The translations under genes and the position numbers were made by a program. Shown piece by piece: positions 2,258 through 32,947 of a DNA stretch of 37,719 nt. Each line of letters starts with the position of its first letter. Position 1 is the stretch's first letter. Origin of the DNA: Planctomycetota bacterium (GTDB lineage Bacteria; Planctomycetota; UBA8742; JACQVU01; JANLHZ01); contig JANLHZ010000142.1 of assembly GCA_024653775.1 (NCBI GenBank), positions 1 to 37,719 of the forward strand, given 5' to 3'. The notes below the pieces were generated by a model. The model was not told the origin of the DNA, did not search any database, and was given only the letters and a program-made list of their open reading frames with translations.

Positions 2258-2353
2258 TACATTATATTCGTACCGTCTACGAATTTAACGTACGATTATT
2301 GACGCGCAGTAATAATATTACGATAAATTCGTAGACGGTACGAATATAATGTA
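2258..2353 (+). repeat. Family B hairpin repeat, copy 1
   Basis: This 96-bp element begins on the base after the TAG stop of the MBL gene. Its first 30 bases (starting TACATTATATTCGTACCGTC) are the exact reverse complement of its last 30, so the transcript would fold into a very long hairpin. Inside the shared outer arm the two sides differ: the left inner arm contains AACGTACGATT and the right inner arm, read outward-in, contains ATCGTAATATTATT. This asymmetry gives the element an orientation. Related copies lie at 24121-24214 and 31457-31550, with a half copy at 22412-22452. TA flanks both ends, compatible with Tc1/IS630-type insertion at TA. Confidence 0.9.
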
Positions 2354-4132: not shown

Positions 4133-4197
4133 TCCTCTCCGCGGCTCCGCGGAGAGCGCGGAGAATTCCTGGGAGTGCGGACGTCCTCGTCCGCGCA
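4133..4197. repeat. Two short hairpin repeats downstream of MBL gene
   Basis: Bases 4135-4143 (CTCTCCGCG) pair perfectly with 4148-4156 around a GCTC loop, and the flanks carry GAATTC on both sides. Bases 4177-4194 form GCGGACG-TCCT-CGTCCGC. The second palindrome, with its neighbouring GGGAG, recurs at 166-188 and 7970-7993. Neither hairpin has a U-tract, so they look like dispersed repeats that may end or stabilise transcripts rather than canonical terminators. Confidence 0.6.
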
Positions 4198-7148: not shown

Positions 7149-7217
7149 GAGTTAAGAGTTAAGAGTTAAGAATTACGAATTGAGAATTAAGAAATCACTT
7201 TTGTTCGGGCATAATTA
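7149..7217. other. Degenerate gagttaagagttaagaatt word repeat
   Basis: Directly after the Ig-protein stop, the sequence runs through gagttaagagttaagagtta, then aattacgaattgagaattaag. Comparable word tandems with other units are at 240-275, 901-927, 17988-18035, 22905-22950 and 26826-26900. No gene or hairpin is visible, and the run ends where the family A element begins. Confidence 0.55.
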
Positions 7218-7397
7218 GGAGGCTGAAATTAATAAGTTGTACATCTCGCATCTCATCTTCACGCCATCTTCGTTTCGCAGTCGGTCGCGAAATCCTCAAC
7301 GGAACTATAGCTACGCCTCCGGTTTCGCTCTCTCCCGCAAAACGAACCTGGAGCAAATCTGAGCGCGATTTTGTAAAACTTATTAATTTCAGACTCC
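7218..7397 (-). mobile_element. Family A MITE-like element, complete copy
   Basis: The 180-bp element is bounded by near-perfect 26-bp terminal inverted repeats, left end GGAGGCTGAAATTAATAAGT and right end its complement with two changes. Its reverse complement aligns along its length with 30344-30538, and its distal part with 1-80. It has no transposase. On the minus strand, a stretch of about 25 codons reads KSRSDLLQVRFAG and onward to VAIVPL, matching the same frame of the other full copy. It lies just upstream of the gene at 7436 and may have supplied or displaced that gene's promoter. Confidence 0.85.
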
Positions 7398-7435
7398 CTA
7401 TCGCGATAACGACCACATCCCTGGAGGCATTCACA

Positions 7436-7969: not shown

Positions 7970-7993
7970 GCGGACGAGGACGTCCGCGGTCCC
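7970..7993. repeat. GCGGACGAGGACGTCCGC palindromic repeat
   Basis: This is the third copy of the palindrome also seen at 166-188 and 4171-4194, again followed by a TCCC motif. It directly abuts the terminator U-tract and lies between convergent genes. Confidence 0.6.
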
Positions 7994-8012
7994 ATGTGAT
8001 CGAGATAGTTTC

Positions 8013-22411: not shown

Positions 22412-22452
22412 TACACATTATTCGTGCCGTCTACGAATTATTCGTAATATCG
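22412..22452 (+). repeat. Family B hairpin repeat, half copy
   Basis: Starting on the base after the TGA stop, ATTATTCGTGCCGTCTACGA and the following ATTATTCGTAATAT match one arm (the AATATT type) of the full family B elements. The matching opposite arm has decayed, leaving CGCGTCCCGAATTTACTG and a distant TAATG. The region to 22575 holds no gene. Confidence 0.75.
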
Positions 22453-22575
22453 CGTCCCGAATTTACTGATTCGCCTCCTGTAATGAATCGCGCGGACTTC
22501 GGCAGGAGCGTTCCAAAGGAACGGTTCGCTTCGCTCACGGTCGCAAGTCAGGCGCGCATCTGAGAAGCCGTGTGC

Positions 22576-24104: not shown

Positions 24105-24120
24105 CGAAGTCGTGGATATG

Positions 24121-24214
24121 ACATTAAATTCGTACCGTCTACGAATTATTCGTAATATTATGCCCGCCGGGGAAAATCGTACGTTAAATTCGTAGACGGC
24201 ACGAATTTAATGTA
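24121..24214 (-). repeat. Family B hairpin repeat, copy 2
   Basis: The arms ATTAAATTCGTACCGTCTAC (24123-24142) and their complement near 24193-24212 match with one mismatch, so the element forms a long hairpin. By the inner-arm asymmetry (AACGTACGATT versus ATTCGTAATATTATG) it is inverted relative to copies 1 and 3. It lies 12 bp downstream of the stop of the minus-strand gene at 24227-24541, so relative to the upstream gene it has the same orientation as the other full copies. Confidence 0.88.
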
Positions 24215-29068: not shown

Positions 29069-30343
29069 ATGGATAAAAACGAAAGCCTTGAAGCGATGAC
29101 TTTTCCGTCGTCGTCTACTTATACGATCATCGAGGAACTCGGCCGTGGAGGGATGGGAGTCGTCTATCTCGCGGAGAAGAACTGCGAGGGCGTGCTCGAC
29201 TACGTCGTTCTGAAAAGCATTCTCACAGTCAACGAGACCAACGTCAAAAGACTCCGTCAGGAGGCGAACGTCGCAACGATGCTCCGCCACGAAAACATCG
29301 TCAAGACATACGGTCTCGAGTCGATCCCGCTGTCGATGCTGCCTCGCTCGCTCGCGCAGTCGATGGACGAGAAACACAGCGGAGCGACGGTTCAGCGCAC
29401 GAAGGATTTCAAACGAAGGAAACTCGAAGCACCCGGCGGGAAACACTCCGCGCGTCGAAGCGATTCCGGGCTTGGTGCGATCAACGACTCCGGCAAGAAA
29501 ATGTACATGATGGCCATGGACTTCATCGACGGGGCGGACCTCGACAACATCCTCCGCGCGCATTTCGATCGCGGACTGCTGATGCCGCCGCAGCTCGCCG
29601 CGTTCGCGATCAGCCGAATCTGCCGCGCGCTCGCGTACGCCCACGAATGGATCGTCCATCGCGACATTTCGCCCGAGAACATCCTGATAAACAACCAGGG
29701 AGTCGCGAAGCTGACCGATTTCGGCATCGCGGTCGCGGCGGACGACGCGGACCAGGGATTCGCGGGGAAGCTGCATTTCATGGCTCCGGAGCAGCTCGGT
29801 CGCGAGCAGGTCGACGGCCGCGCGGACATGTTCGCGCTCGGGCTTGTCGCGTATCAGGCCGTCACTGGAATACCGGTCTACGTGCTTAAGGGCGGACTCG
29901 ATTTCAAGGGAATGGTCGAGTACGTGAAACAGCAGATGAGCAATGACATCGTCCCGCCTCACATGGTGCGGGAGGACGTTCCGAAGGAGCTTTCTAAAAT
30001 CATCATGCGAATGCTCGCGATGGACAAGAAGCAGCGCTTCTCGGACATGCACGAGTGCAGCGCAGAGATCGAGGGAGGCTATCTCTACGCAAAGGGCTTC
30101 GGGCCGACGAACAACTCTCTGATGGCGTACATAGATATTTTCGAGCATCAGTTCCAGAAATACACGAACGATCAACTCCGGAATCTCACGTTCCTTAAAA
30201 ACGCGGAAGGCAAGATTCAGCTAAAGAGAAAGCTGAAATGGGACGATTATTCAAAACTCGGCAAGAAAATGATCCTCGGCCAGAAGGGCACGAATTCGAA
30301 CATTTATCGCGCGATCGCGAAACTCAACGCCGCGGCGGGATAA
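29069..30343 (+). CDS. Hanks-type Ser/Thr protein kinase
   Basis: The 424-residue kinase is soluble, with no membrane span. Motifs are complete: GRGGMG (25-30), VVLK49, E65 in the C helix, HRD (197-199, HRDISPEN), N204, DFG (217-219), APE (239-241) and GLVAYQAVTG. An insert of about 60 residues (85-143), basic and Ser/Lys-rich, interrupts the N-lobe between strands. The C-terminal 80 residues (345-424) form a helical or basic tail (KIQLKRKLKWDDYSKLGKK). It could phosphorylate targets read by the FHA protein at 15362-17965, an inference. Start ATG 29069 has a weak SD. Its stop codon abuts a family A element. Confidence 0.9.
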   Translation: MDKNESLEAMTFPSSSTYTIIEELGRGGMGVVYLAEKNCEGVLDYVVLKSILTVNETNVKRLRQEANVATMLRHENIVKTYGLESIPLSMLPRSLAQSMDEKHSGATVQRTKDFKRRKLEAPGGKHSARRSDSGLGAINDSGKKMYMMAMDFIDGADLDNILRAHFDRGLLMPPQLAAFAISRICRALAYAHEWIVHRDISPENILINNQGVAKLTDFGIAVAADDADQGFAGKLHFMAPEQLGREQVDGRADMFALGLVAYQAVTGIPVYVLKGGLDFKGMVEYVKQQMSNDIVPPHMVREDVPKELSKIIMRMLAMDKKQRFSDMHECSAEIEGGYLYAKGFGPTNNSLMAYIDIFEHQFQKYTNDQLRNLTFLKNAEGKIQLKRKLKWDDYSKLGKKMILGQKGTNSNIYRAIAKLNAAAG

Positions 30344-30538
30344 GGAGGCTGAAATTAATAAGTTGTACAAAATCGCGCTCAGATTTATGTCAGGTTCGAT
30401 TCGCGGGAGGAAGCAAAACCGGAAGCGTAGCCATAGTTCCGCTGAGCCATTACCTCGATGTTATGGTGTGACCGAGCGCGGAGCGAAGATGACGTGAAGG
30501 TGAGATGCGAGATGTACAACTTATTATTTTCAGCCTCC
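30344..30538 (+). mobile_element. Family A MITE-like element, complete copy
   Basis: The 195-bp element starts on the base after the kinase TAA stop. Its 26-bp terminal inverted repeats (GGAGGCTGAAATTAATAAGT at the left) are nearly perfect. It aligns in direct orientation with 1-80 and inverted with 7218-7397, and has no transposase. TAA flanks both ends, a possible 3-bp target duplication. In one frame it encodes SRSDLCQVRFAG and onward to VAIVPL, matching the other complete copy. It separates the kinase gene from the methyltransferase gene. Confidence 0.85.
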
Positions 30539-30574
30539 TAAACGGGAAATCGAACTCATCATCGAAGTTTTCGG

Positions 30575-31438
30575 ATGGAACAAGAGAAACCAGAGGTCAT
30601 CGCTAACGGGCCGTCGATAGACGAGGTCAGAGACTTCTGGCAGAACAACCCGCTGTTCTCGGGCGAAGCCTCGTCTGAAGTGGGAAGCAAAGAGTATTTC
30701 GAGGAGCACCGCAAGGTCTACATCGAGGACTGCCTCGCGGGTGTCTTCGACGAGAGGTTCATCCCGCCAACCGAGAATCGTGGCCTCGTCCTCGACCTCG
30801 GCTGCGGCCCCGGAATGTGGAGCGTCGAACTTCAAATCCGCGGCGGCGCGAACAAACTCGTTTCCGCCGACCTGACGGAGAAAGCGGTCGAACTCTGCGC
30901 GAAGCGCCTTCAGATTTACGGTCTCGAACCTTTCACGGAAATCCAGAACGCGGAGAGTCTGACGTTCGAGACGGGGAAGTTCGATCACGTCAATTGCCAG
31001 GGAGTGATACACCACACGCCGAATACGGAGAACTGCGTGTCTGAAATCGCACGTGTGCTGAAACCCGGCGGAACCGCGTGCATCTCGGTGTACTACCGGA
31101 ACGTAATCCTTCGGAACTGGTGGCTTCTGCGAATTCCGTCCTACGTCCTTTTCAAACTCGGCGCCAGGCTTAAGGGAAGAGGCCGCGAAACTATCTTCGC
31201 GCAGCGCGACATAGATGATATCGTTCGCTACTACGACGGAAGCGAAAACCCCATCGGCAAAATGTACACGAAGAAGCAGTTCCGCGAGATGATAGAAAAA
31301 CACTTCGTCGTCGAGGAGATTTACTACCATTTCTTCCCGAGGCGCGCGCTTCCGTTCTGGATGCCGAAGTTCCTGCACAGGTTCCTCGACCGGAGACTTC
31401 CATTCATGATCTACGCTACGCTGAGAAAACCATTTTGA
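30575..31438 (+). CDS. Class I SAM-dependent methyltransferase (Methyltransf_11-like)
   Basis: The 287-residue product has the SAM-binding glycine motif LVLDLGCGPGMWSVEL (about 71-86), VSADLTEKAVELCAKR (motif II), a QGVIHHTPN motif and a LKPGGTACISVYYRN strand. This resembles the UbiE/COQ5-like class I fold that methylates small molecules; the substrate is unknown. The C-terminal 100 residues (FKLGARLKGRGRETIFAQRDIDD on) are extra and contain basic and aromatic segments (FFPRRALPFWMPKFLHRF) that may contact lipid. A weak SD precedes ATG 30575. Its stop is followed after 18 bp by a family B hairpin. Confidence 0.82.
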   Translation: MEQEKPEVIANGPSIDEVRDFWQNNPLFSGEASSEVGSKEYFEEHRKVYIEDCLAGVFDERFIPPTENRGLVLDLGCGPGMWSVELQIRGGANKLVSADLTEKAVELCAKRLQIYGLEPFTEIQNAESLTFETGKFDHVNCQGVIHHTPNTENCVSEIARVLKPGGTACISVYYRNVILRNWWLLRIPSYVLFKLGARLKGRGRETIFAQRDIDDIVRYYDGSENPIGKMYTKKQFREMIEKHFVVEEIYYHFFPRRALPFWMPKFLHRFLDRRLPFMIYATLRKPF

Positions 31439-31456
31439 CCGCGGCTGAAAAATCAT

Positions 31457-31550
31457 TACATTATATTCGTACCGTCTACGAATTTATCGTACAATTTTAT
31501 CCGACGCGAAAATATGACGAATAATTCGTAGACGGTACGAATATAATGTA
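31457..31550 (+). repeat. Family B hairpin repeat, copy 3, abutting comB start codon
   Basis: The 94-bp element has arms of about 27 bp (TACATTATATTCGTACCGTC at the left) in perfect inverted relation. It lies 18 bp after the methyltransferase stop. Its last base, 31550, is directly followed by the ATG of comB, so the comB leader consists of the element's right arm and lacks a Shine-Dalgarno. It has the same orientation as copy 1. Confidence 0.9.
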
Positions 31551-32246
31551 ATGAAAATCGAACTCAAATACGGTATCGACGATGCTCCCCATTGCGAGGG
31601 ATACGTGGTCGTCATCGACGTGATCCGCGCGTTCACCACCGCCGCGTTCGCGTTCTATCGCGGCGCAGAAAAGATATTCCTGGTTTCGACTGCGGAAGAG
31701 GCGTTCCGGCTGAAGGCGAAGAACCCGCGCTTCGTCCTCGTAGGCGAAAACGGCGGCCGGCAGATCGAAGGATTCGACTTCGGGAATTCGCCGGAAGCGA
31801 TTTCGCGCGAGGATTTCACGGGAAGGTCGATCGTGCTGCGCTCGAGCAGCGGGACGCAGGGAGTCGTGAGCGCGAAGCGGGCCGAGCAGATATATCTCGG
31901 AAGCCTCGTCGTCGCGTCTGCGACAGCGCGCGCGCTTCGCCTCGCAAACCCCCGGACGACGACGATTCTAGCGATGGGGTCCGTGGCAGGCCCCGACGGC
32001 GCCGAGGACATCGCGTGCCGGACGTACATCGACCACGTCCTTCGCGAAGAGGCTATCGACAAACAGAGGATCATCGACGAGGTCCGGAACAGCCCGTCAG
32101 GACTACAGGCGCTCGATCCGCTGATCGACTACAAAACCCCAGGCGATCTCGACTGCGCGACCTGCATAGATAGATTCGATTTCACGATGCCGGTGACGCG
32201 CGAAGGCTCATACCTGATCGCGCGGCGGAAAGGAGCGAAGGAGTGA
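31551..32246 (+). CDS. comB: 2-phosphosulfolactate phosphatase
   Basis: ComB hydrolyses 2-phosphosulfolactate to sulfolactate, known from coenzyme M synthesis and present in many bacteria that do not make coenzyme M. The 231-residue length and motifs VVVIDVIRAFTTAAFAFYRGAEKI (residues 20-43), LVGENGGRQIEGFDFGNSP (63-81), IVLRSSSGTQGV (96-107) and GSVAGPDGAEDIACRTYID fit the family. Its ATG directly abuts the family B repeat, and no Shine-Dalgarno is visible. The next gene starts by GTGA overlap. No other sulfolactate-pathway gene is seen. Confidence 0.88.
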   Translation: MKIELKYGIDDAPHCEGYVVVIDVIRAFTTAAFAFYRGAEKIFLVSTAEEAFRLKAKNPRFVLVGENGGRQIEGFDFGNSPEAISREDFTGRSIVLRSSSGTQGVVSAKRAEQIYLGSLVVASATARALRLANPRTTTILAMGSVAGPDGAEDIACRTYIDHVLREEAIDKQRIIDEVRNSPSGLQALDPLIDYKTPGDLDCATCIDRFDFTMPVTREGSYLIARRKGAKE

Positions 32247-32947
32247 CGATTTCCAGGTTCTTTGACGAATATCCGCGTTTTCAGGAAACGAGTGCCACGA
32301 CGCCGCAGCTCAATCGGCTGAACACGAGGCACCAGGGGATCGTCGAGAATCAGCGGAGTTGGTTCGAAGGCGCCCGCGTGCTCGACCTCGGGAGCCACGA
32401 CGGCAGGTGGACATTCGCCGCACTAAAGGCGGGAGCGAGCTTCGTCACCGGAATCGAGGGCCGGGAGTATCTCGCCTCGAACGCCTGCAAGACGTTCGAG
32501 GAGTACGGGATCTCGCGCGAGAAGTTCAGGTTCATCATCGGGGACGTCGATAGCGAGCTGGAAAAGCTTTCAGCGCGCGACTTCGATCTCGTGCTCGTCC
32601 TCGGAATCCTTTACCACCTTCGAAGTCCGTTCAGCACGCTTGCGAGAATCGCGGCGCTCAGCCCGGAGAGGATCATTATCGATACCGCGATTTCGATGAG
32701 CAGCGCGCCCGTCATCGAGCTGCGCCACGACGATCCCGTGAAGGAAAGCGATTCCATCGACCTCCGCGGCGACAACCGGAAAATTCTGGTCGGCTACCCG
32801 AGCGAGTCCGCGCTTTTTTTGATGATGGAAGACCTTGGGTACGCGTCCGAGAAAATCGGATACCGCGAACTTGGCGTAACCGACTACAGCTTCATACCGG
32901 ATTACGAGTCAGGCGGCAGAATCACGATTCGCTGCGTTCGCAAGTAA
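32243..32947 (+). CDS. SAM-dependent methyltransferase, DUF1698-like
   Basis: The 234-residue protein has the class I SAM site VLDLGSHDGRWTFAALKAGA (about 46-65), VTGIEGREYLASNACK, and DFDLVLVLGILYHLRSPF (about 113-130), similar to the CmoB/DUF1698-type tRNA-wobble and small-molecule methyltransferases. Substrate unknown. It starts at GTG 32243, overlapping the comB stop by GTGA, so the two are translationally coupled, which hints that it acts on a ComB-pathway product or is simply co-expressed. It ends 14 bp before the convergent aldo/keto reductase gene. Confidence 0.82.
   Translation: MTISRFFDEYPRFQETSATTPQLNRLNTRHQGIVENQRSWFEGARVLDLGSHDGRWTFAALKAGASFVTGIEGREYLASNACKTFEEYGISREKFRFIIGDVDSELEKLSARDFDLVLVLGILYHLRSPFSTLARIAALSPERIIIDTAISMSSAPVIELRHDDPVKESDSIDLRGDNRKILVGYPSESALFLMMEDLGYASEKIGYRELGVTDYSFIPDYESGGRITIRCVRK

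Follow-up and report, generated by a model that had tools for sequence, protein, structure and literature searches.

Palindromic element at the comB start

The window analysed here is a whole 37,719-nt stretch (contig JANLHZ010000142.1, forward strand) of the 5.42-Mb genome of a Planctomycetota bacterium (GCA_024653775.1). In this window, a comB-like gene of the 2-phosphosulfolactate phosphatase family is located between two methyltransferase genes (Table 1), and comB likely forms a transcription unit with the second of these, which it overlaps. An inverted-repeat element occupies the short gap upstream of comB. Its first base lies 18 nt past the stop codon of the first methyltransferase gene and its last base adjoins the comB ATG; the distance from stop to start, element included, is 112 nt. 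A tRNA was the sole match in an Rfam search of the window, and comB was found in none of the 19 close relatives from the class.

Table 1. Features at the comB locus and further family-B copies in the window
Feature	Position	Strand	Remarks
Paired family-B copy	2258..2353		directly after TAG stop
Lone family-B arm	22412..22453	+	directly after stop
Paired family-B copy in short operon gap	24120..24214		12 nt past one stop, 15 nt before next start
Class I SAM methyltransferase gene	30575..31438	+	Methyltransf_25/11, E 1e-19
Weak promoter-like site	31435..31462	+	TTGACC, 16 nt, TACATT; 9/12 matches, consensus match only
Full palindrome	31453..31554		comB ATG (31551-31553) inside stem
Inverted pair (dimer) of family-B arms	31457..31550		profile matches 66.7 + 64.1 of 71.9 bits; repeat + fold
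Left arm, C-type, GTACAATT	31457..31498	+	TACATT end faces methyltransferase stop
Right arm, AT-type	31509..31550	-	TACATT end (AATGTA on +) touches comB ATG
comB-like gene	31551..32246	+	PF04029, E 7e-39; start by alignment
Second methyltransferase gene	32243..32947	+	4-nt overlap with comB

The initial annotation had described a 94-bp inverted repeat directly abutting comB. The contact was upheld, as the family consensus ends at 31550 and the ATG follows at 31551. The length of 94 bp holds for the conserved part of the element, but the palindrome itself is longer and includes the ATG, because complementarity continues for 4 bp past the conserved element on each side (TCAT...ATGA) and thereby places the start codon in the stem. 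The palindromic arms (31453-31498 and 31509-31554) are 89% complementary, with 10 nt between them and unbroken pairing over the outer 32 bp. Folding of the RNA from 31440 to 31600 gave a minimum free energy of -61.5 kcal/mol, compared with -31.5 +/- 3.6 for 200 shuffled sequences (z -8.25; no shuffle as good), which confirms the inverted repeat as a genuine feature, well above chance.

The comB product (MKIELKYGI) aligns from residue 1 with the N-termini of its relatives (MKIVVREGL and MQIRKLQLL), and the next in-frame start falls inside the conserved VVIDVIRA block; therefore, 31551 is the correct start, contrary to an earlier suggestion that the true one is downstream. No Shine-Dalgarno (SD)-like tetramer was present at -16 to -4, as had been noted before. 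However, this lack is less of an anomaly than first supposed: an SD was present in 159 of 415 confident ATG genes (background 7%, peak at -10) and absent from 256 (62%), two of these being the kinase gene and the methyltransferase gene that precede comB. Additionally, the flanks joined without the element (CCGCGGCTGAAAAATCA followed directly by ATG, 17 nt past the methyltransferase stop) have no SD, indicating that none was visibly lost by insertion and weakening the proposal that the element had replaced the original leader. Since the SD is absent from most genes and from the joined flanks, its absence before comB is not rare, and insertion is not its evident cause. Coupling to the methyltransferase gene, another earlier proposal, is unlikely in its classical form over 112 nt; coupling would fit the 17-nt gap left when the element is taken away. 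In the genome sample, the motif TANNNT was enriched at -12 of ATG starts (20 vs about 8 per position), which points to leaderless genes in this organism.

A repeat family restricted to one genome and its probable transposase

The element at comB belongs to a repeat family, here termed family B, whose arm consensus (TACATTWTATTCGTRCCGTCTACGAATTNNNNGTANNATT; 127 arms) covers about 42 nt, with information dropping to nothing on both sides. The arm is partly self-complementary and could fold into a small hairpin (ATTCGTA-CCGTC-TACGAAT). Both lone arms, which are common, and inverted pairs occur; in 32 of the 38 pairs the core length is 78-80 bp (about 79 bp), with an unconserved centre. Outer positions -2, -1 and 6 agree between paired arms above chance (P about 0.01), and positions 27-28 disagree above chance (P 0.0002 and 0.001). 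At the latter, most of the 38 pairs are made up of one A-type and one C-type arm, and A + A never occurs, which suggests distinct left and right ends. Because only three outer columns covary and columns 27-28 differ, not all copies are simple perfect hairpins.

A 19-base core (ATTCGTNCCGTCTACGAAT) had 249 matches (half-arms, at most one mismatch) in its own 5.4-Mb genome, whereas the reversed-pattern control had none. Among the 294 genomes of the phylum, the family was restricted to this one, bar a single-copy, chance-like core match in the 293 others, where the control pattern had two. The one match in a collection of 84,980 genomes, in a member of the Prevotellaceae, is about what chance provides for a 19-mer in 257 Gb. 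A lone arm at L124:9353-9394 seemingly supplies the start codon of the next gene, with the ATG within its last five bases. A TA target-site duplication was not found at family-B ends (T at -8 in only 61% of arms, ends not concordant), unlike what would be expected of a Correia-type or IS630-type MITE.

The genome contains five Y1_Tnp genes, and each of them lies between inverted repeats that differ in sequence from those of the others (loci L056, L057, L059, L060 and L140; contigs C300, C117, C288, C19 and C164). The repeats are not family B in four cases. The fifth gene (L140 on C164; 1963-2631, minus strand) encodes a 222-aa Y1 transposase and lies between inward-facing family-B arms (1917-1958 and 2659-2700), at distances of 4 and 27 nt, respectively; farther out lies a third arm. 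Its product scored above the cut-off for PF01797 and aligned with E. coli TnpAREP (4er8, E 5e-6) in the HUH and tyrosine region (NHVHFI over EHMHCI, YVERNPVRAG over YIYINPVKHG). Its score against NCBIfam REP_Tyr_transpos was below the cut-off (65.3 bits vs 80; E 5e-18), and it was therefore filed as RAYT/TIRYT-like and not as a canonical RAYT. Because the same arms flank this gene, the element was read, on sequence grounds, as a relative of REPINs and TIR dimers, and was filed as a dimer of a TIR/REP-like family that is putatively moved by this enzyme.

Family B shares the fixed spacing of inverted copies, the hairpin and, judging from per-position information, the less conserved spacer of REPINs. 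Like REPINs and BIMEs with RAYTs (PLoS Genet 2011, PMC3116915), it forms inverted doublets with a poorly conserved centre and a large hairpin, has one matching transposase and also occurs as single arms. Unlike these, it pairs arms of two types at positions 27-28 and carries no terminal GTAG-type tetranucleotide at its consensus ends (TACATT and GTANNATT), GTAG occurring solely within the stem. The TIR families of TIRtrons (TIRYT; Di Nocera et al. 2013, PMC3733652) likewise combine a Y1 gene between inverted repeats that lack the GTAG REP layout with single and dimeric intergenic repeats, some of them self-complementary. However, the family-B arm sequence is new, and its hundreds of copies contrast with the moderate numbers of most published TIR families. 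The Correia repeat enclosed elements of Neisseria (PMC2649163) resemble the comB element as short palindromes upstream of genes, one of which ends in the A of an ATG; they are RNase III substrates and can supply a -10 in their first six bases. Their 'Snyder' promoter has the same layout as TTGACC in the host and TACATT in the element at comB. Family B differs from them in sequence and ends, in showing no TA target duplication and in its link to a Y1 transposase.

Several other repeats were observed. The repeat flanking the Y1 gene on C288 (GGACCGCGGACGTCCTCGTCCGC) resembles window repeats at 168-189, 4170-4194 and 7970-7994. A second family of about 200 bp (AGGAGGCTGAAATTAATAAGTTGTACA...), which ends in an inverted repeat, has inverted copies at 7214-7405 and 30336-30541 of the window, one of them just before the methyltransferase gene. 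Moreover, lone family-B arms are often followed by the repeat GTGAACGTTCGGTGAACCACGTGGCACGGACGTC (loci L062, L094, L096, L132 and L080), and at L080 (17262-17487) two family-B arms enclose an inverted pair of it.

Placement of family-B elements relative to genes

Placement was assessed in 1.69 Mb of the 5.42-Mb genome using gene calls from our own simple caller; the selection of contigs was in part guided by the presence of the element, a choice that bears on its density but leaves its position with respect to genes unaffected. Of 94 outer ends, 47 lay at most 10 nt from a stop codon, against 2.5 under the null (500 placements, maximum 8). Convergent gaps held 35 family-B units (null 11.4), whereas divergent gaps held 3 (null 23.3). 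Family B is therefore intergenic, close to 3' ends and scarce in divergent gaps, and its placement matches the published REP distribution. GTAG/CGTC REPs (PMC3733652) also lie between convergent and co-directional genes, less than 20 nt from 3' ends (close to both in convergent ORFs), at variable distances from downstream starts. In contrast to these, family B has AT-rich arms, a 7-bp inner stem and a CCGTC loop, with CGTC in the loop and not in an unpaired end tag.

The distances from the element to the downstream start were mostly above 70 nt, and the short ones were -5, -5, 0 (comB), 14, 15 and 22 nt. Among the few elements that fill a short operon gap, such as that at 24120-24214, the comB copy is the extreme case.

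Predicted effect on comB and competing explanations

When the RNA contains the left arm, the predicted unpaired probability of the comB ATG is 0.001, which ranks last or second to last among 533 genes (rank 0.2% for -3 to +3 and 0.4% for -15 to +15), although this fold is that of naked RNA and could be altered by ribosomes, helicases or folding during transcription. With the flanks joined, openness from -15 to +15 was near the median. A scan of 5' ends predicted that the ATG opens to about 0.6 once the RNA begins at 31456 or later. As a prediction, these values support the proposal in the initial annotation that the hairpin controls initiation by sequestering the start. Sequestration would be the unusual part of this locus, with about the least accessible start of the 533 genes, provided that the mRNA begins upstream of 31453, and an effect of the element on comB translation is plausible from the modelled fold.

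The best explanation as a whole, to which we assign a probability of roughly two in three, is that a Y1-linked non-autonomous mobile repeat entered the gap between the methyltransferase gene and comB and locks the comB start on read-through mRNA. The repeat consists of two head-to-head arms of about 42 nt and would belong to the REP-associated Y1 transposase of the HUH type whose gene is located on contig C164. As is usual for REPs, family B settles directly after stop codons. We infer that it was inserted at this site, its outer end probably touching the ATG by happenstance. On mRNA begun upstream of 31453, the 32-bp stem would hold the start and comB would be poorly translated. Functional comB mRNA would then consist mainly of RNAs whose 5' end falls within the left arm or beyond it. 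They might arise in two ways: by initiation at the weak promoter-like site on the element edge, which combines TTGACC from the host with the first six bases of the element, or by cleavage of the stem by RNase III, for which a gene is present. Meanwhile, the stem may shield the 3' end of the methyltransferase mRNA. It begins 15 nt past the methyltransferase stop, and E. coli REPs stall ribosomes when within 15 nt of a stop, as discussed in PMC12306157; the stem is thus at the limit of this range.

Alternatively, the element could simply be a REP-like repeat at the 3' end of the methyltransferase gene that meets the ATG by chance and regulates nothing, comB having its own 5' ends or the stem being melted in the cell. 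All the stop-codon statistics fit this account, to which we give somewhat less than an even chance. Copies at 14, 15 and 22 nt before starts place one at 0 not far out among over 100 elements, and the 5'-end scan leaves the start free on shorter RNAs. However, on read-through mRNA the ATG would be covered by a 32-bp stem of about -60 kcal/mol, which would be hard to ignore, and no good promoter is visible inside the element.

It is improbable that the hairpin is a selected device, maintained as a comB switch through RNase III-dependent release or through coupling in which it bridges the gap for the terminating ribosome. Pairing is perfect in the outer arms of this copy and its inner part has diverged, but perfect outer pairing is family-wide, indicating nothing special about comB. 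The genome encodes RNase III, and the Correia elements that this enzyme cuts alter neighbouring genes; coupling over 112 nt is without sequence support. A transcription terminator or attenuator between the methyltransferase gene and comB would be consistent with the position of a stable hairpin directly after a stop codon and with the preference for convergent gaps, as for bidirectional terminators. We consider this unlikely, because the GC-rich stem followed by a T-run of an intrinsic terminator was not found at the comB element, which gave no terminator-like match, and because comB and the overlapping second methyltransferase gene need transcription through or from this site. A leaderless comB driven by TATAAT in the right arm (31542-31547) would agree with the TANNNT excess at -12 but is very improbable, as this hexamer lies at -9 to -4, 3 nt too close for an RNA start at the A, and lacks a -35 partner.

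The kind of element is already known, whereas its placement over the comB start is unusual. Family B is an additional lineage-specific repeat family, present in high copy number and with an identifiable transposase, and it extends to another lineage of bacteria the observation that such repeats settle directly after stop codons. It is doubtful, though conceivable, that a transposon hairpin acts here as a translational gate, the comB start being hidden in the stem of a mobile element and freed only by cutting or by an RNA start inside the element. Since the start codon lies in the stem and the predicted effect depends on the RNA 5' end, the comB copy offers a clean natural case for the effect of a REP-like hairpin on the gene behind it.
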